From a virus, in IMG/VR virus record IMGVR_UViG_3300046009_003669, positions 1 through 33,783 of that record: a stretch of DNA of 33,783 nucleotides; one strand, written 5' to 3'. Position numbers and translations under genes: made by a program. Positions within the stretch are counted from its first letter, which is position 1. Each line of letters begins with the position of its first letter. Shown piece by piece: positions 5,521 to 13,270 of this stretch. The notes under the pieces were generated by a model. The model was not told the DNA's origin, did no database searches, and saw nothing but the letters and a program-made list of their open reading frames with translations.

Positions 5521-7603
5521 GTTGGCCCTCCACTAGTTTGACCTGATGATTAGCAGACACGACCACTTGATACCCGTGGATGACCTTCTCTTCGTAACGT
5601 TTTGAGGTCTTTAGATGCCCTGCTTTGCCGAGCGATTTGCCCATTGCAGCCACCGTCCGACCATCGACAGATAGGAACCTACCGATACCTTGCAAGATGC
5701 TGGAGATCTCATGTGCAACATCGGTCGCCGTCTTCGGCCGTCCCTCAACAGTCGCCGCCCTAACATAAATCTCGACAAGGTCATCGGTCATCGTGTTCTG
5801 TTGAAACGGCTTGTTGTACTCATTCAACAGGTCTATATCCTCAGCATCTAACCAATAAGGGAAACGCGTGCTGTACAGATGCAAGGCCTGTGCCCATACC
5901 TTGTCGATGGAGATCGCCATGACCTTCGCCATATCGACGTGGCCCCCTAATGCGATCACCGGAAACCGTCTCGACCCCGTTTCATCGCTCAGGAAGTTTC
6001 GCCTATTCACCGAACCGATGTACGACACAATGCGTCTGATGGTCACGAACGCCCTGCCATACGGAGGCCGGACGCGGTCGGAGGCCTTCGTGATGATGCC
6101 TTTCATTGCTTCGGCTTCGCGCTTGTTCATCGACTCGAGTTCGTCGTCGACAGCTATGAACGACGAGCCAAGGACTAGCTTATCGTCCTTCTCCCCTGAG
6201 ATGCTGCCTTCGTAATAATGATTCTTGCGAAGCGCATCAGGGCACAAATACCGAATAAATCGGGTCTTGCCGACGCCCTGAGCACCTTGCAAGATCGGCA
6301 TCAGATGATTCGGGTGATTGTCAATAGCACACGCCACGGCCCCGACCAGCCACTTGCGAATAATGCCATCATTGAACCTACTGATGACCTCAGGAGGGTA
6401 GTGACTGTTGGTATCGACAGGCAGACAAGCGGCAAGCGCTCCGATGTGGTCAGCATCCTCTGGACGCCATTCCGGCAGGTTCTCAAAATAGTCTATAATC
6501 GGGTTGAACCTTGGCGCGAAGTCCGACATCAGGATCTCCCAGATCTTCGTCGACGGTATCTTGATTCCCGAAGCCCGCATCTTGCGTAGGCACGAGTGAA
6601 CATAGTAGTCCGACATCGGTTCCCATTCCTGTTCCCGAACGTCGCGGTACTCGACGCACAGCGTGACGTCGTTATACCGAAACTGCCCACTTGCCAGCAG
6701 CCACGATTCGGCGGCGTCGTATGCCTCGATCGCCGTCGTCGGGGCCTCGCGCATCATGTTCTTTGGTGGCTGGTAGCCGTGCTTCTTTGCTATGTAAATG
6801 ACCGTGCCGATACCGACTTTCGTCAGCCTGTTGGCATATAGCTTGCGATACGGGATGGTAGATGGTGACCACTTCTCTAATGCCGCGCAGACTTCATCCG
6901 TGCATCCGTAGTAGTTGAATACCCCAGCCACCGTCCGTTTCCAGTCGAGGTGCTCCTGATGCGGCGGTACGAAAGCCAACATCTGGCGAAGATCGTCCAT
7001 TGTGAGGTCGCGATCTTTGAACGCTTCGAACTGTACTTCGCTGGCGTGGGCTTCGTCGTCTTCGCCTACCATTTCATCAACTACGGCCTTGCCGATGGTC
7101 TTTCGAAACCATATCGTTTCAGCCTGCGGGTTGCCATACCATATACGCACAGCGTCGCGCGTGTTCGTATCACCTTCGTAGCGTGCGCACAAAACGCTCA
7201 CAACGCGCTTGTATTCCTCAACCCTACGGATGGGCGCGTCGAGAATGAAAACGATCCTATAACGCGGATGTTCCGCCGTGTGGCTTGCCGTGGTGTAAGC
7301 GAACGCAGCATTGGCAGCGAGAAACGGATCGTCCTTTAACGTTTCGAATGCCGTCTTGCCGTGATCGACATCGACACCCACGACCTGCGCAGACTTGAAA
7401 GACGCTACCGTCCTATGGCAGTACTGCGTCTTCTCGTTCGCCACCAGATCAGCGCAGCATATCGCATGGCCCTTGACTGCCAGATGATCGTGCAGGTCAT
7501 ACATGGTCATTTCGACCGACTGCAGGCGATCTGATAGGGCCAAAAAATCTTCACGGGAGGCCTTGCCTATGACCTCCCGTGATACTGTTAGTCTGAATTG
7601 CAT
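5501..7603 (-). CDS. VapE-type primase-helicase (AEP-like N-terminus, SF3-like ATPase)
   Basis: This 700-aa protein is the main replication enzyme. The N-terminal region carries archaeo-eukaryotic primase-like elements: VVGVDVDHG with Asp78 and Asp80, then SHTAEHPRYRIVF at about 107-119. Residues 200-275 match a PriCT-type linker (LTMDDLRQMLAFVPP, then DWKRTVAGVFNYYGC). The C-terminal half is a virulence-associated E ATPase: Walker A GAQGVGKT at 440-447, Walker B SFIAVDDELE at 481-490, and the sensor-like YIGSVNRRNFLSDETGSRRF at about 528-547. It should prime and unwind DNA for phage replication. The start ATG overlaps the stop of a 46-aa membrane peptide gene (TAATG). No separate DNA polymerase was found, so host polymerase is probably used. 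Confidence 0.9.
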   Translation of the reverse strand: MQFRLTVSREVIGKASREDFLALSDRLQSVEMTMYDLHDHLAVKGHAICCADLVANEKTQYCHRTVASFKSAQVVGVDVDHGKTAFETLKDDPFLAANAAFAYTTASHTAEHPRYRIVFILDAPIRRVEEYKRVVSVLCARYEGDTNTRDAVRIWYGNPQAETIWFRKTIGKAVVDEMVGEDDEAHASEVQFEAFKDRDLTMDDLRQMLAFVPPHQEHLDWKRTVAGVFNYYGCTDEVCAALEKWSPSTIPYRKLYANRLTKVGIGTVIYIAKKHGYQPPKNMMREAPTTAIEAYDAAESWLLASGQFRYNDVTLCVEYRDVREQEWEPMSDYYVHSCLRKMRASGIKIPSTKIWEILMSDFAPRFNPIIDYFENLPEWRPEDADHIGALAACLPVDTNSHYPPEVISRFNDGIIRKWLVGAVACAIDNHPNHLMPILQGAQGVGKTRFIRYLCPDALRKNHYYEGSISGEKDDKLVLGSSFIAVDDELESMNKREAEAMKGIITKASDRVRPPYGRAFVTIRRIVSYIGSVNRRNFLSDETGSRRFPVIALGGHVDMAKVMAISIDKVWAQALHLYSTRFPYWLDAEDIDLLNEYNKPFQQNTMTDDLVEIYVRAATVEGRPKTATDVAHEISSILQGIGRFLSVDGRTVAAMGKSLGKAGHLKTSKRYEEKVIHGYQVVVSANHQVKLVEGQREQDSF

Positions 7604-8345: not shown

Positions 8346-8561
8346 CTTGGCTTTGGCGATGGCGGCCTCTGCGAAAGCAATATCACCGTGTTGATCGTAA
8401 CTATCAGGCTCCTCACGTGCAATCGCGGCCGGCAGGATGCGCTGAAGAGCCTCCAGCATTTCAGGGGCGGCGGCGAACAATGGCGTGTACAGTACGTAGT
8501 CACCATTGTTATCTTCGACCATCCTAGGTCCAACCATACCGAAACATTTATATCGTTTCAT
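8331..8561 (-). CDS. Small phage protein with AAPEMLEAL motif
   Basis: A 76-aa protein. ATG 8561 is chosen over a start 23 codons upstream because AGGAG sits about seven bases before it and that ATG overlaps the previous stop (ATGA). The centre reads GDYVLYTPLFAAAPEMLEAL and the end IAFAEAAIAKAKGVTP. This AAPEMLEALQ…AIAKAKG arrangement recurs in many small phage proteins of unknown function. No enzymatic motif is seen. It shares its last residues, GVTP, with the gene upstream because both end in the same 15-bp junction. Confidence 0.75.
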   Translation of the reverse strand: MKRYKCFGMVGPRMVEDNNGDYVLYTPLFAAAPEMLEALQRILPAAIAREEPDSYDQHGDIAFAEAAIAKAKGVTP

Positions 8562-8572
8562 GGCGTTACTCC
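8558..8572 (-). repeat. Repeated 15-bp stop/start junction, copy 2
   Basis: Identical to 8331-8345. It carries the stop of the 123-aa gene, the ribosome site and the ATG of the 76-aa gene. The duplication suggests that one of the two genes was inserted together with, or by recombination at, this junction. Confidence 0.8.
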
Positions 8573-8929
8573 TGTATTGCTGATTTGTTTCACACAAATC
8601 TCGTGATACATCGGTATCCGCTGCATCCACGACTTGTTTCGTTCCCTCTTATTCGGGAGGGTGATCGTCCGTGACGGTGGATGCTTACCAGCCGCCTGCT
8701 TACGTGTTCGGTCAGTGATGCGCACCGCCCAGTAGATCTTACCGTTCGCATTGTAGTGCGCTTCGCCTCTGATGGCCAACCCTTGCCGCAGGTGCTGGGC
8801 TGCGCCTCCGGTGCGTTCGTATAAAAGGATTTCAGCATCTTGAATACCGGCCTGCTTAGCTTCCCGGTAGCGTTCTGCAAATGCCGGATCGGCTGCGGTC
8901 AGCTCTTCAATTTTAGAATCGATCTGCAT
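8558..8929 (-). CDS. Unknown early protein
   Basis: This 123-aa protein is not recognised. The N-terminus (IEELTAADPAFAERYREAKQ) is helical. A segment GEAHYNANGKIYWAVRITDR looks like a beta hairpin, followed by a very basic stretch (RTRKQAAGKHPPSRTITLPN, then KRERNKSW) that could bind nucleic acid. It ends with GVTP inside the repeated 15-bp junction. The gene lies three bases after the next upstream gene. The function is unknown. Confidence 0.65.
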   Translation of the reverse strand: MQIDSKIEELTAADPAFAERYREAKQAGIQDAEILLYERTGGAAQHLRQGLAIRGEAHYNANGKIYWAVRITDRTRKQAAGKHPPSRTITLPNKRERNKSWMQRIPMYHEICVKQISNTGVTP

Positions 8930-8932
8930 GAC

Positions 8933-9391
8933 TCACCTCACGAACGGATTAGTTGCGAGTTGTCCGTAAACGTTGTGGTATTGATACGCACGTGCCACGG
9001 TGTCCTTATCAATACCCAGCGCCTGCAATGCCGTCTGCACATCATTCGCCGCGCGTTGTCTTAGGGCTTCGGTGCGTTCGGCTTCGACACGCCTTCGCAC
9101 CTGTTCCATGAATTCCATGTCTGATATTTGCCCCCGCACTTCGCTAAGCACACGTTGCTCGATAGCCTCGCGCCGTTCTGCTAAGGTCTTGCTACGGGCT
9201 TGCTCGACTTCGGCGGCTACCCTAACCAGAGCCGCAAGCACGTCCCCACCTGGGGGGACGTACTCGTGCGTTGTGGTGTATTTCGTGCCGTCATCGGTTA
9301 GGCTGGGAATGCGTCCCCAGACGTGGCAGTGGCGATCGTTAAGATACTTGTAAAACACTCCGGGCCGGTATGTTTTGAATCCTGTTTTCAT
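8933..9391 (-). CDS. Unknown coiled-coil protein
   Basis: A 152-aa protein starting at ATG 9391, preferred over ATG 9421 because AAGGGG lies at proper spacing just upstream and the longer form would have none. The first 50 residues (TGFKTYRPGVFYKYLNDRHC…) look globular. Residues about 55-130 (VRVAAEVEQARSKTLAERRE, then FMEQVRRRVEAERTEALRQR) are strongly helical, heptad-like and charged, as in a coiled coil. There is no known motif. It follows the SSB-like gene after ten bases and may work with it in recombination, but only position suggests this. Confidence 0.65.
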   Translation of the reverse strand: MKTGFKTYRPGVFYKYLNDRHCHVWGRIPSLTDDGTKYTTTHEYVPPGGDVLAALVRVAAEVEQARSKTLAERREAIEQRVLSEVRGQISDMEFMEQVRRRVEAERTEALRQRAANDVQTALQALGIDKDTVARAYQYHNVYGQLATNPFVR

Positions 9392-9401
9392 AGCTGGCCC
9401 C

Positions 9402-10061
9402 TTAGAACGGTAGCGAGCCATCGTCTTCGTTATCGACGACCGGCACGGTGCTGGTGGTTGGGATAGACGGTGTTTCCTTCTGGCCTGATGTTAGCTTGGG
9501 GCTAACCTTCGCCGCCAGTTCGGCCTCGACAAATACGAGTTGCTTAGTACTGTCAAACATCGTCTGGCCGTTTACCATCATGACTTCGAGGTCAGGCAGT
9601 TGCGTCTTGGTCGGATCAGGACGCATGGACGTGCAATACGGACGCTCCAGTTTGTTACCGTTTTGGTAAACGGTCGCCCCGATGATGGTCTTCTTCGGGT
9701 TGTCGTCTGGGCTGAATGAGTACGGCACGATCTTGATCGCCTGCTTGCCATCGAAGGCCGGGTTGCATAGTGCCAAGATGATGGTCTTGGCGTAACTCGA
9801 TGTGTACTTCATCGTCACAACGTAGCGCTGGTCATCTTCGATGACGATTCGCCACTGCTTGCCGAAGTCACTGTCGGCAGTGCTGATACTTCGCACGATA
9901 CCACTGATAGAATCGGCCACCCACTCGTATACGACGTTACCGTCTTTCGTAGTGCGCGTGGTGGTGGATGCGTTCGGTTCTTTGTATCGCACGCGAAGTT
10001 TGCCCTCCGAGATAGAAACATATACCGCGCTAGTGGTTGGGGTTTCTTGATTCAAACCCAT
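9402..10061 (-). CDS. SSB-like protein with acidic C-terminal tip
   Basis: A 219-aa protein with a beta-rich body (AVYVSISEGKLRVRYKEP, WRIVIEDDQRYVVTMKYTSS, ATVYQNGNKLERPYC) and a Ser/Thr/Pro linker ending in the acidic tip NEDDGSLPF. That tip closely resembles the DD-x-x-PF tail by which bacterial SSB recruits repair and replication proteins. I infer that it coats single-stranded phage DNA and recruits the neighbouring exonuclease or the VapE helicase. The OB fold itself cannot be proven by eye. It starts at ATG 10061 after AGGAGCC, downstream of a terminator-like hairpin (10127-10165). Confidence 0.68.
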   Translation of the reverse strand: MGLNQETPTTSAVYVSISEGKLRVRYKEPNASTTTRTTKDGNVVYEWVADSISGIVRSISTADSDFGKQWRIVIEDDQRYVVTMKYTSSYAKTIILALCNPAFDGKQAIKIVPYSFSPDDNPKKTIIGATVYQNGNKLERPYCTSMRPDPTKTQLPDLEVMMVNGQTMFDSTKQLVFVEAELAAKVSPKLTSGQKETPSIPTTSTVPVVDNEDDGSLPF

Positions 10062-11096: not shown

Positions 11097-11315
11097 TTAG
11101 TTAAGTTTAGCTCTTTGCGCTTCGTCATCATACCGTTCCCTGCGGTCGGCTTCCGTCACCATGTTCACGACGTCCAGCAGACTGCCGGCCAGTTCCTTGG
11201 GGATGGCCTCCAGTTTCACCAGATGGTTGGCTAGTGTGCACAGCATTGTGTAACTGTTTAGGATAGCCATCTTCTCCTCATGTGAGCGTTCCCGCCATTT
11301 CAGTTCAAAGATCAT
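11097..11315 (-). CDS. Small helical unknown protein
   Basis: A 72-aa protein, almost entirely helical by pattern (HEEKMAILNSYTMLCTLANH, then LVKLEAIPKELAGSLLDVVN) with a charged C-terminus. It has no recognisable motif. It overlaps the small membrane protein gene upstream by four bases (ATGA) and ends 17 bases before the exonuclease start, so it is co-translated with its neighbours. The function is unknown. Confidence 0.6.
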   Translation of the reverse strand: MIFELKWRERSHEEKMAILNSYTMLCTLANHLVKLEAIPKELAGSLLDVVNMVTEADRRERYDDEAQRAKLN

Positions 11316-11536
11316 GGCCGTGCCTCCATCTGAAATACGTCAACGTGAGCGTGCTGAGGCGGCACGTCGGTATAAATCATGCCCAGTAGCAACACGCCAG
11401 CCATGCCCACGATTACGGTCGTGATCACTAGCGAGTAGATACGCTGCTTTGCGGTTCCTCTGAAATACGGCGCAAGTCTGAAATGCTTGCGACCGATAGC
11501 GTCTGTGCACGTCGTGCATTCGATGCCGAGTCTCAT
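11312..11536 (-). CDS. Small membrane protein
   Basis: A 74-aa protein with one strong transmembrane helix at about residues 34-55 (YSLVITTVIVGMAGVLLLGM). The N-terminal part has cysteines at about 7 and 10 in ECTTC and a basic stretch (RKHFRLAPYFRGTAKQR) before the helix, so it probably sits N-in. It starts at ATG 11536 directly after GGGAGCAGACAG, preceded by a seven-unit AC repeat, the same leader type as three other early genes. A frame of 89 codons in another register covers it but is judged a shadow. Confidence 0.62.
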   Translation of the reverse strand: MRLGIECTTCTDAIGRKHFRLAPYFRGTAKQRIYSLVITTVIVGMAGVLLLGMIYTDVPPQHAHVDVFQMEARP

Positions 11537-11566
11537 CTGTCTGCTCCCAAAAGTGTGTGTGTGTGT
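11537..11566 (-). repeat. AC-microsatellite leader of the membrane protein gene
   Basis: On the minus strand, seven AC units (11566-11553) are followed by TTTT, then GGGAGCAGACAG, then ATG. The GGGAGCAGACAG block is identical to that before the gene at 13107. Here there is no conserved hairpin upstream of the repeat. Confidence 0.75.
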
Positions 11567-11605
11567 TATGGGTTGTTATCCCATAACGTGACCAATCTAC
11601 GTAAT

Positions 11606-12280: not shown

Positions 12281-12465
12281 GACGGCCTCCGAGTGTTGAG
12301 GTCTCTCAATTTCGAATCTAATTCTTGGAGCCGGTCGGCGGCTTCAAGTAGAGCGGCCTCAGCTACGCCATCGCCAGTATTAAGAGCGGCGGCGAGAATG
12401 CGCAGGGCTTTGATAAGGGTTTCGGTCGAGCTCCGGCCGGGCGTGTGCTTTGCTTCCGTGCTCAT
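12277..12465 (-). CDS. Small helical unknown protein
   Basis: A 62-aa protein with a polar N-terminus (MSTEAKHTPGRSST), then two helices: LIKALRILAAALN and AEAALLEAADRLQELDSKLR. The AALLEAADRLQEL pattern recurs in small phage proteins of unknown role. It overlaps the 45-aa gene upstream and the glycosyltransferase downstream, each by four bases (ATGA), forming a tightly coupled trio. Confidence 0.65.
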   Translation of the reverse strand: MSTEAKHTPGRSSTETLIKALRILAAALNTGDGVAEAALLEAADRLQELDSKLRDLNTRRPS

Positions 12466-12599
12466 GACTTGCGCCCCTTATCTATCGCCGCGTTGGCGGC
12501 TTTGAGCTTCTGCTCTGCGTCTTTGACGGCTGCGGCAAGGGTCTTGCCAGTGCCGATAATCTTACGACCCCTGCGGTCGAATGTGGTGGCTGTTGCCAT
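12462..12599 (-). CDS. Small basic protein (45 aa)
   Basis: I translated ATG 12599 to TGA 12464-12462: MATATTFDRRGRKIIGTGKT, then a lysine-rich amphipathic helix (LAAAVKDAEQKLKAANAAID) and KGRKS. It is very basic and may bind nucleic acid or an acidic partner. The start follows GGGAGCAGACACC and an AC repeat, and the stop overlaps the next start (ATGA). A 77-codon frame in another register covers the same bases, but the frame here is favoured by the leader, the ribosome site and the overlap. Confidence 0.6.
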   Translation of the reverse strand: MATATTFDRRGRKIIGTGKTLAAAVKDAEQKLKAANAAIDKGRKS

Positions 12600-12653
12600 G
12601 GTGTCTGCTCCCGTGTGTGTGAAAGTTGCGCGTTGTGCAGCCGCGCCCCTGCT
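12600..12653 (-). repeat. Structured AC-repeat leader, copy A
   Basis: On the minus strand: AGCAGGGGCGCG, a nine-base loop, CGCGCAACTTTC, 4.5 AC units (12621-12613), then GGGAGCAGACACC and ATG 12599. GCGCG (12646-12642) and CGCGC (12632-12628) form a perfect five-base stem. Copy B (12852-12916) has the same order and differs by two loop bases, the repeat length and the last few bases. Confidence 0.8.
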
Positions 12654-12659
12654 AAGCTG

Positions 12660-12851
12660 TTATCGCGTTCCGTTCCCTTCGCCATCTGCTGTTTCGGCGT
12701 TATAGATATACTCAAACATGTGACGGTTTGAAGATTGGAATTTTATGTAGGCGCTGTCGAAATACTTTTCAAGCGCTGAAAGTGTGCGCGCTTCGCCAAA
12801 TAACTTGATAAGCTTTTGCGCGACATTGTAATAAGCTGTTAGGCGTGTCAT
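12660..12851 (-). CDS. Small unknown protein (63 aa)
   Basis: The product is MTRLTAYYNVAQKLIKLFGE followed by ARTLSALEKYFDSAYIKFQS and an acidic tail. It is helical, with several aromatic residues, and has no known motif. ATG 12851 is chosen because GGGAGC precedes it and upstream in-frame codons would read straight through the AC repeat (as His-Thr-His-Thr) and back over the previous gene. The gene lies between two copies of the structured AC-repeat leader, as an independent expression unit of the early operon. Confidence 0.65.
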   Translation of the reverse strand: MTRLTAYYNVAQKLIKLFGEARTLSALEKYFDSAYIKFQSSNRHMFEYIYNAETADGEGNGTR

Positions 12852-12916
12852 GTCTGTGCTCCCGTGTGTGTGTGTGTGTGTGTGAAAGTTGCGCGTTATG
12901 CAGTCGCGCCCCTGCT
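12852..12916 (-). repeat. Structured AC-repeat leader, copy B
   Basis: The order is the same as copy A: AGCAGGGGCGCG, a nine-base loop, CGCGCAACTTTC, then 10.5 AC units (12884-12864), GGGAGCACAGAC and ATG 12851. The stem GCGCG/CGCGC (12909-12905 with 12895-12891) is conserved. A second hairpin, CCTGCT (12933-12928) with AGCAGG (12916-12911), spans the stop codon of the upstream gene only in this copy. Confidence 0.8.
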
Positions 12917-12921
12917 GGTAT

Positions 12922-13107
12922 TTACTTAGCAGGTGCGAAAGATGCGTTGTCAAGGTGCTCGACCTTAGCACCGTCGCAAATGAACGCCATCGCTTTGAGT
13001 GCCGACATTGGGAAAACGCGCATTGCGCTACGGCTGTAAGAATAGTAACGCTCGCGGTTTTTCTTGTCGCGCTTGACATAAACCGTGTTCCAAGTTAGCT
13101 TTTCCAT
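12922..13107 (-). CDS. First early gene, small basic protein (61 aa)
   Basis: A 61-aa protein (MEKLTWNTVYVKRDKKNRER, then YYSYSRSAMRVFPMSALKAM). The N-terminal half looks like a beta hairpin with a strongly basic turn (KRDKKNRER); the C-terminal half is mixed. It has no known motif. It is the first gene after the early promoter candidate, so it should be among the first and most strongly made products; small basic first-gene products often target host functions (inference only). The start follows CGGGAGCAGACAG and the longest AC repeat in the window. The stop lies within a hairpin. Confidence 0.65.
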   Translation of the reverse strand: MEKLTWNTVYVKRDKKNRERYYSYSRSAMRVFPMSALKAMAFICDGAKVEHLDNASFAPAK

Positions 13108-13144
13108 CTGTCTGCTCCCGTTGTGTGTGTGTGTGTGTGTGTGT
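13108..13144 (-). repeat. AC-microsatellite leader of the first early gene
   Basis: On the minus strand 11.5 units of AC (13144-13122) precede ACGGGAGCAGACAG and ATG 13107. Because it lies between the promoter candidate and the first start codon, it forms most of the 5' untranslated leader. Dinucleotide runs of this length are prone to slippage. Confidence 0.8.
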
Positions 13145-13158
13145 TGACTGACGTATGC

Positions 13159-13185
13159 AACATAACACTTATTTCAATAATGCAA
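13159..13185 (-). promoter_or_regulatory. Early promoter candidate (extended -10)
   Basis: On the minus strand TTGCAT (13185-13180) is followed, 15 bases later, by TATGTT (13164-13159) preceded by TGT, an extended -10 pattern. The surrounding A/T-rich tract (eight T on the plus strand at 13190-13197) could act as an UP element. It is the only clear gap before the early genes and lies just after a terminator. Confidence 0.5.
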
Positions 13186-13187
13186 AC

Positions 13188-13214: not shown

Positions 13215-13246
13215 TTCAGCCCCCTCCACACTAGGCAGAAGGGGCC
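13206..13246 (-). terminator. Terminator at the end of the structural operon
   Basis: On the minus strand GGCCCC… (from 13246) pairs imperfectly with …GGGGGC (to 13219) to give a GC-rich hairpin with about a ten-base loop. Six T residues follow (13212-13207). It lies 25 bases after the stop of the last gene (13271) and separates late from early transcription on the circular map. Confidence 0.6.
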
Positions 13247-13270
13247 ACGACTCAGCATAAGACTTGCGCC

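Follow-up and report, generated by a model that had tools for sequence, protein, structure and literature searches.

A minus-strand operon of small genes with a repeated leader

The DNA analyzed here (the window) is the whole of a 33,783-base virus record, IMGVR_UViG_3300046009_003669, positions 1 to 33,783. Its likely genes lie on the minus strand and include those for a phage capsid protein, a terminase and a VapE-type protein. Two leaders on this strand, 12916-12852 before gene B (ATG at 12851) and 12653-12600 before gene C (ATG at 12599), share a repeated element. The features of this region are listed below from upstream to downstream.

13217 to 13247, minus strand: terminator-like hairpin upstream of the operon
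13159 to 13186, minus strand: probable promoter, TTTGCA ... TATGTT, judged by conservation in L009 and partly in L015
13108 to 13146, minus strand: gene A leader, AC run and CGGGAGCAGACAG, without pseudoknot
12922 to 13107, minus strand: gene A, 61 aa, occupying an exchangeable slot downstream of the probable promoter
12891 to 12915, minus strand: predicted pseudoknot copy 1, GCAG GG GCGCG A CTGC ATAA CGCGC, starting 6 nt past the gene A stop
12852 to 12890, minus strand: gene B leader, A/C-rich, with AACTTTC, an AC run and a GGGAG Shine-Dalgarno-like site
12660 to 12851, minus strand: gene B, 63 aa
12628 to 12652, minus strand: predicted pseudoknot copy 2, GCAG GG GCGCG G CTGC ACAA CGCGC, starting 7 nt past the gene B stop
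12600 to 12627, minus strand: gene C leader, A/C-rich, with AACTTTC, a short AC run and a GGGAG Shine-Dalgarno-like site
12462 to 12599, minus strand: gene C, 45 aa, kept beside the slot in relatives
11565 to 11587, minus strand: hairpin GTTATGGG...CCCATAAC, unrelated to the pseudoknot, ahead of the gene D AC run; same sequence in L009
11537 to 11564, minus strand: gene D leader, AC run and TTTTGGGAGCAGACAG, without pseudoknot
11312 to 11536, minus strand: gene D, 74 aa, conserved in relatives

For genes A and B no match was found in Pfam (E<=0.1) or PHROGs (E<=0.01), and gene C had no PHROGs family. A consensus promoter scan of the window returned 0 promoter-like sites and left the probable promoter upstream of gene A unscored. 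An AC run with GGGAGCA is also present ahead of gene A (13107) and gene D (11536), there without the hairpin of the gene B and C leaders. Other hairpins (GGTAG..CTACC) precede the A/C-rich leaders of distant gene D orthologs (L010 near 7005; L118 near 5000), and the gene D AC run itself (window 11552-11566) is longer in the close relative L009 (3623-3645). Slippage-driven length variation in dinucleotide runs such as this one could tune expression.

A repeat search of the window returned direct repeats at 12613-12653 and 12876-12916, 41 nt each, 95% identical and 263 nt apart; the chance expectation for a pair with 31/33 identity within the window is 7.5e-8. The duplicated leader described in an earlier sequence-only reading is present, then, and far beyond chance, and its GCGCG/CGCGC stem is indeed kept while two bases of what was taken for the loop differ (A/G and T/C). 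There are two copies in the window because the consecutive small genes B and C each carry one. An intrinsic terminator (a GC stem followed by a T run) was considered for the element and rejected, as the terminator scan showed no site at either copy.

Pairing and covariation in the 25-nt element

The same reading had proposed a hairpin with a free nine-base loop. This has to be revised, since the CTGC of the loop is base-paired to the GCAG that precedes the stem, and a 25-nt H-type RNA pseudoknot rather than a hairpin is strongly supported by the comparison of related sequences. In the predicted fold, stem 1 joins nt 1-4 with nt 13-16 (GCAG with CTGC in the window), loop 1 is GG, stem 2 joins nt 7-11 with nt 21-25 (GCGCG with CGCGC in the window) and loop 3 is N-Y-A-A, with a single purine between the stems (A in 132 and G in 24 of 156 contexts). 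At the two positions where the window copies differ, the usual combination among relatives is A with C; the two differences therefore do not covary with each other, and a simple hairpin with covarying loop bases is ruled out. A plain secondary-structure fold of the two copies, by a method that cannot score pseudoknots, was unremarkable (z -0.7 to -1.4).

The first indication of stem 1 comes from mycobacteriophages, in which CCAG/CTGG and CCGG/CCGG replace GCAG/CTGC, so that the bases ahead of the stem pair with the middle of the presumed loop. For unbiased tests of pairing we ran one scan with the stem 1 letters left free and another with stem 2 left free. Counts from the stem-1-free scan are lower bounds and phage groups are sampled unevenly. 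Among all fetched loci (at least 152 distinct contexts), stem 1 paired at 4/4 positions by Watson-Crick rules in 124 of 152 and at 3/4 positions in 22 of 152; when the GCAG/CTGC contexts were excluded, 76 of 104 fetched contexts were still fully paired. At least nine perfect versions of stem 1 were found, namely GCAG/CTGC (48), CCAG/CTGG (32), AGAG/CTCT (11), CGAG/CTCG (11), CCGG/CCGG (10), CAAG/CTTG (6), TCAG/CTGA (3), TGAG/CTCA (2) and ACAG/CTGT (1). The stem-2-free scan gave 66 contexts, of which 41 had GCGCG/CGCGC, 2 had ATGCG/CGCAT, 2 had GTGCG/CGCAC, 2 had GTGCG/CGCGC with a wobble pair and 19 were unpaired; two further perfect versions of stem 2 thus occur besides GCGCG/CGCGC, in 4 of the 66 contexts.

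Covariation was quantified on 45 distinct sequences, made up of 44 of the 65 distinct cores and one additional core; 16 stem-2-free matches without a pairing stem 2 and 5 genome-contig cores were left out. In this set the stem 1 counts are fair (5 unpaired matches were kept), whereas the 100% of stem 2 is a selected figure, its unselected counterpart being the 66-context scan. Paired cells made up 95.1% of 405, as compared to 83.1 in shuffles, while slid versions of the pairing reached at most 58.4%. Double-sided changes numbered 46 (13.3 in shuffles) and the covariation score was 0.295 (0.089 in shuffles), with 0 of 500 shuffles as high in either case, and 6 of the 9 base pairs showed a double-sided change. 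Compensated changes are also visible within single phages: the two copies in PSonyx differ as GCAG/CTGC vs. CCGG/CCGG, and those in EastView9101 differ by compensated changes in both stems. The element therefore has the two interleaved stems of an H-type pseudoknot, with compensatory change supporting each, and the suggestion that it is a structured RNA is borne out.

Not all positions vary. The inner three pairs of stem 2 are invariant in the 45-sequence set and in the 47 paired contexts of the stem-2-free scan, and the pair G4-C13 is nearly fixed (39 of 45 sequences). The invariant centre, which comprises GG, the adjoining G-C pair, GCG/CGC and CAA, goes beyond what pairing requires and speaks for a partner. 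A rival explanation is a sensor of a small molecule or ion, with the element as a riboswitch aptamer of minimal size; H-type pseudoknots are known as riboswitches (SAM/SAH, preQ1) and the invariant nucleotides cluster around the helix junction. The preQ1 and SAM/SAH riboswitches resemble our element in being compact two-stem knots upstream of genes, but they sense metabolites, whereas here the genes are phage genes of many downstream clusters in which no shared pathway was seen, and we regard this explanation as very improbable.

Occurrence, position and neighboring genes

A viral-contig scan for GCGCGRCTGCAYAACGCGC located the core GCAGGGGCGCG[A/G]CTGCA[C/T]AACGCGC in 51 other IMG/VR stretches, nearly all of which share the prefix GCAGGGG. 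In isolated phages a 30-nt query matched 125 records (119 Mycobacterium, 5 Corynebacterium and 1 Mycolicibacterium), and among the matches listed (40 of the 125 named-phage records) 39 of 40 fall in unannotated gaps. Queries with variants matched 145 records and, for the other variant, 178 records, in the latter case with many weak rows inside coding sequence that we took as chance. The records of Fishburne and BigNuz carry the core, and plasmid pCGR1 of C. glutamicum has one element between two genes. At least 156 distinct contexts among the fetched loci have at least 3/4 stem 1 pairs and at least 4/5 stem 2 pairs, so a third occurrence, on which the sequence-only reading had staked its proposal, is amply provided. 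The same element precedes other small genes elsewhere, as had been expected, for instance in L117 (same family as the window phage, exonuclease 46%) and in L134. The idea of a local duplication, with a cassette copied within one phage, is abandoned, as the element is found across many phages.

In species-representative genome contigs the scan returned 6 stretches, one of them convincing by eye; L174, a Chloracidobacterium MAG, has an intact core adjoining a start, and L172 has 3/4 pairs in stem 1. A cellular element was considered and rejected; the other four stretches fail stem 1, and a narrower pattern had no match in any of 396 Actinomycetota genomes. Pattern matches in L006-L008 and L005 look like chance or unrelated sequence. 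An exonuclease-alignment scan of genomes found no relative, and when the window was searched against named phages for close and for distant similarity, only a tape-measure fragment or nothing came up. In Mendokysei the core lies inside annotated gene gp56 (L182 1353-1703), whose start may have been placed too far upstream, and in L204 a minus-strand core at 2940-2964, in the GCTG/CAGT version, is closely followed by what appears to be a tRNA gene.

The element is portable and intergenic, lying a few nt past one stop and followed by an A/C-rich, G-poor leader up to the next start. In the 152 of 156 contexts with a stop found, the knot starts at least 5 nt, and most often 5-12 nt, past the stop codon, and in most of 145 contexts the start codon lies 7-40 nt downstream of the knot. 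A stop at most 60 nt before and an ATG at most 60 nt after the knot were found in 117 of 156 contexts on the same strand, as compared to 2 of 156 on the opposite strand. The final 25 nt before the start contain 41% A, 34% C and 8% G (91 contexts), vs. 31% A, 27% C and 22% G in control leaders from the same contigs (n=993). As 109 of the 156 cores fall in some open frame of at least 100 codons, counted from stop to stop, the term intergenic depends on which stops and starts lie nearest and, in the named phages, on annotation. Such open frames easily arise in leaders poor in T and G, but they may not be harmless.

Recoding pseudoknots have a similar size and a similar spacing after a stop codon. 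The 5-9 nt between stop and knot would fit a recoding signal by which frameshift or stop readthrough fuses two genes, but the start frames relative to the upstream stop are even (47, 43 and 43 of 133) and an intervening stop is present in 26 of the 43 in-frame cases. The absence of a fixed frame relation between the two genes, which sets the element apart from recoding pseudoknots, refutes recoding as a general role, and we give it next to no credence. The same spacing has a bearing on mRNA stability. A start 5-12 nt past the stop in many contexts, and never less than 5, together with a compact and GC-rich stem 2, is what would be anticipated if the knot were a processing barrier, shielding the upstream 3' end from exonucleases or the downstream 5' end after cleavage of the leader. 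A mere barrier would have no need of the invariant GG, GCG/CGC and CAA, however, and the knot is consistently accompanied by an A/C-rich leader that runs up to the start codon, for which reasons this explanation seems improbable to us.

The genes on either side vary widely. Upstream proteins fall into 82 clusters in 152 contexts and downstream proteins into 56 clusters in 145 contexts, and across 141 contexts the knot joins 92 different combinations of upstream and downstream clusters. It is the leader element and not the gene that is shared, as the sequence-only reading had it. Within some downstream clusters the knot is retained with different versions of stem 1 (CAAG and CGAG; CGAG and TCAG). 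In the AGAG group the leader is 68-89% identical although both neighbors are unrelated, whereas in the other large stem 1 groups pairs with differing neighbors have little in common outside the core.

Nine contigs (the window, L009, L109, L010, L011, L112, L116, L118 and L015) were compared at the slot that separates the probable promoter from gene C, which holds different small genes in close relatives (window 12600-13146). The window has genes A and B there and L009 has a gene X, of which L109 has a version with 49% amino acid identity; the slot genes of L112, L116 and L118 form one family, and L010, L011 and L015 have their own slot contents. Over the 120 nt ahead of the slot L118 does not differ from L109, and the two are 87% identical in gene C, yet their slot genes are unrelated. 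Within a lineage, unrelated genes are preceded by one and the same A/C-rich leader, which differs from lineage to lineage: (AC)n-GGGAGCAGACA in the window and L009, CCACCACCACAATCGGAGGACACC in L015 and CAACCACCAACCACACGGAGACC in the L010 group. Among the nine contigs only the window has the pseudoknot at the slot; the other eight relatives (L009-L015, L109-L118) are without it there.

An exchange of small genes at the leaders had been suggested from the window, and such swaps do occur. The further suggestion, that the structured element is the site of recombination, finds no such backing, because the swaps are mostly in relatives without a pseudoknot at the slot. If the element were a recombination joint or the boundary of a mobile DNA, its short identical stretches would allow small genes to be swapped between phages, in line with the freely combined neighbor genes, the conserved AGAG-group leaders and the swaps between leaders in the window's phage family. 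Compensatory changes in two interleaved stems are evidence for RNA and not for DNA homology, and with the family swaps falling mostly at places that lack the pseudoknot we consider a joint quite improbable. As separate observations, GGGGCGCAGCATCCTACACTGCACAACC, which resembles a broken core, follows the stop of unrelated slot genes in L011 (near 5960-5990) and L112 (near 3505), and in L003, a different phage, four starts at 8398-9787 on the minus strand are preceded by ACACACA and a GGGAG/GGGGG site; two of these four share GACGAGGCCAGCACGTCTCACACACA, without a pseudoknot.

Possible role in initiation and relation to known leaders

Taken together, the position of the element, the openness of the leader and the lack of any preference for particular genes point to an element serving downstream initiation, and a role in initiation at the downstream gene is the most likely one. 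On the whole we lean slightly towards a portable 25-nt H-type pseudoknot in polycistronic phage mRNA that acts in cis on downstream initiation. The compact knot would close off the upstream message and leave the A/C-rich leader single-stranded and open to the ribosome, while the invariant centre may contact a common partner, for instance the ribosome or an RNA-binding protein. The position is just as compatible with a function for the upstream gene, at its 3' end or in processing. A Shine-Dalgarno-like site is absent from most metagenomic examples, and the route of initiation must therefore differ between hosts. It is also conceivable, if doubtful, that the elements form a gene-independent phage family of minimal 25-nt mRNA pseudoknots across unrelated hosts, recruiting a universal host component that would most likely be the ribosome; were this so, any gene behind the knot in a phage operon would be translated on its own account.

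The closest order of parts is that of the gene 32 mRNA of phages T4, T2 and RB69, in which, on the account given in PMC3014915, an unstructured leader and then the ribosome site come after a pseudoknot; in T4 the gene 32 protein binds the knot, then covers the leader, and so regulates its own synthesis (PMC3014915). Both are phage mRNAs with these parts in this order, in our case as judged by position and base composition. Going by that account, the T4 leader differs from ours in being A+U-rich with the knot 67 nt upstream, whereas here it is A/C-rich with the knot 7-40 nt upstream in most contexts, and in serving one autoregulated gene, as compared to many unrelated genes and phages. By analogy, a single-strand-binding or other RNA-binding protein of phage or host could nucleate on the knot, spread along the leader and shut the downstream gene. 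The shared order of parts (PMC3014915), the inner stem 2 and loops that are invariant beyond pairing needs and the place of the element one gene after ssb on plasmid pCGR1 are all consistent with such a translational operator. Set against this, 56 downstream protein clusters in 145 contexts do not allow autoregulation of one gene, and, as genes B and C have no PHROGs family, the gene 32 type of autoregulation does not apply here; we hold an operator to be unlikely.

The preferred reading, an element acting on downstream initiation, also invites comparison with the Start-Associated Sequences (SAS) and extended SAS (ESAS) of cluster K mycobacteriophages. According to PMC3203893, SAS is a 13-bp sequence, GGGATAGGAGCCC, at the ribosome site in 11-19 copies per genome; SAS/ESAS are orientation-specific and precede unrelated genes at their starts, with an inverted repeat upstream in about half of the cases, and their mechanism is given there as unknown. 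Like SAS/ESAS, our element is repeated, orientation-specific and placed before the starts of unrelated genes. On the description in that paper, SAS/ESAS differ in belonging to one cluster with 13 bp at the ribosome site and 11-19 copies per genome, whereas the 25-nt pseudoknot lies upstream of the leader, with few copies per genome in many phage groups. The 13-bp SAS sequence beside the start was absent from the leaders read here.

Rfam 15 gave no hit for the window (gathering threshold), for 12580-12960 (E up to 10) or for eight named-phage and plasmid loci (gathering threshold); Rfam models do not score pseudoknots, so that a weak relative could be missed. In the open-licence literature we found no description of the element, and an account in a subscription journal, a supplement or a survey is possible; the pseudoknot element seems not to have been described before. 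If confirmed, it would join the T4 gene 32 leader as a phage mRNA pseudoknot, but one not tied to any particular gene behind it, and it could help to locate gene starts in compact phage operons. With matches in more than a hundred records of mycobacteriophage and corynebacteriophage isolates, its function can be tested at once in laboratory phages.
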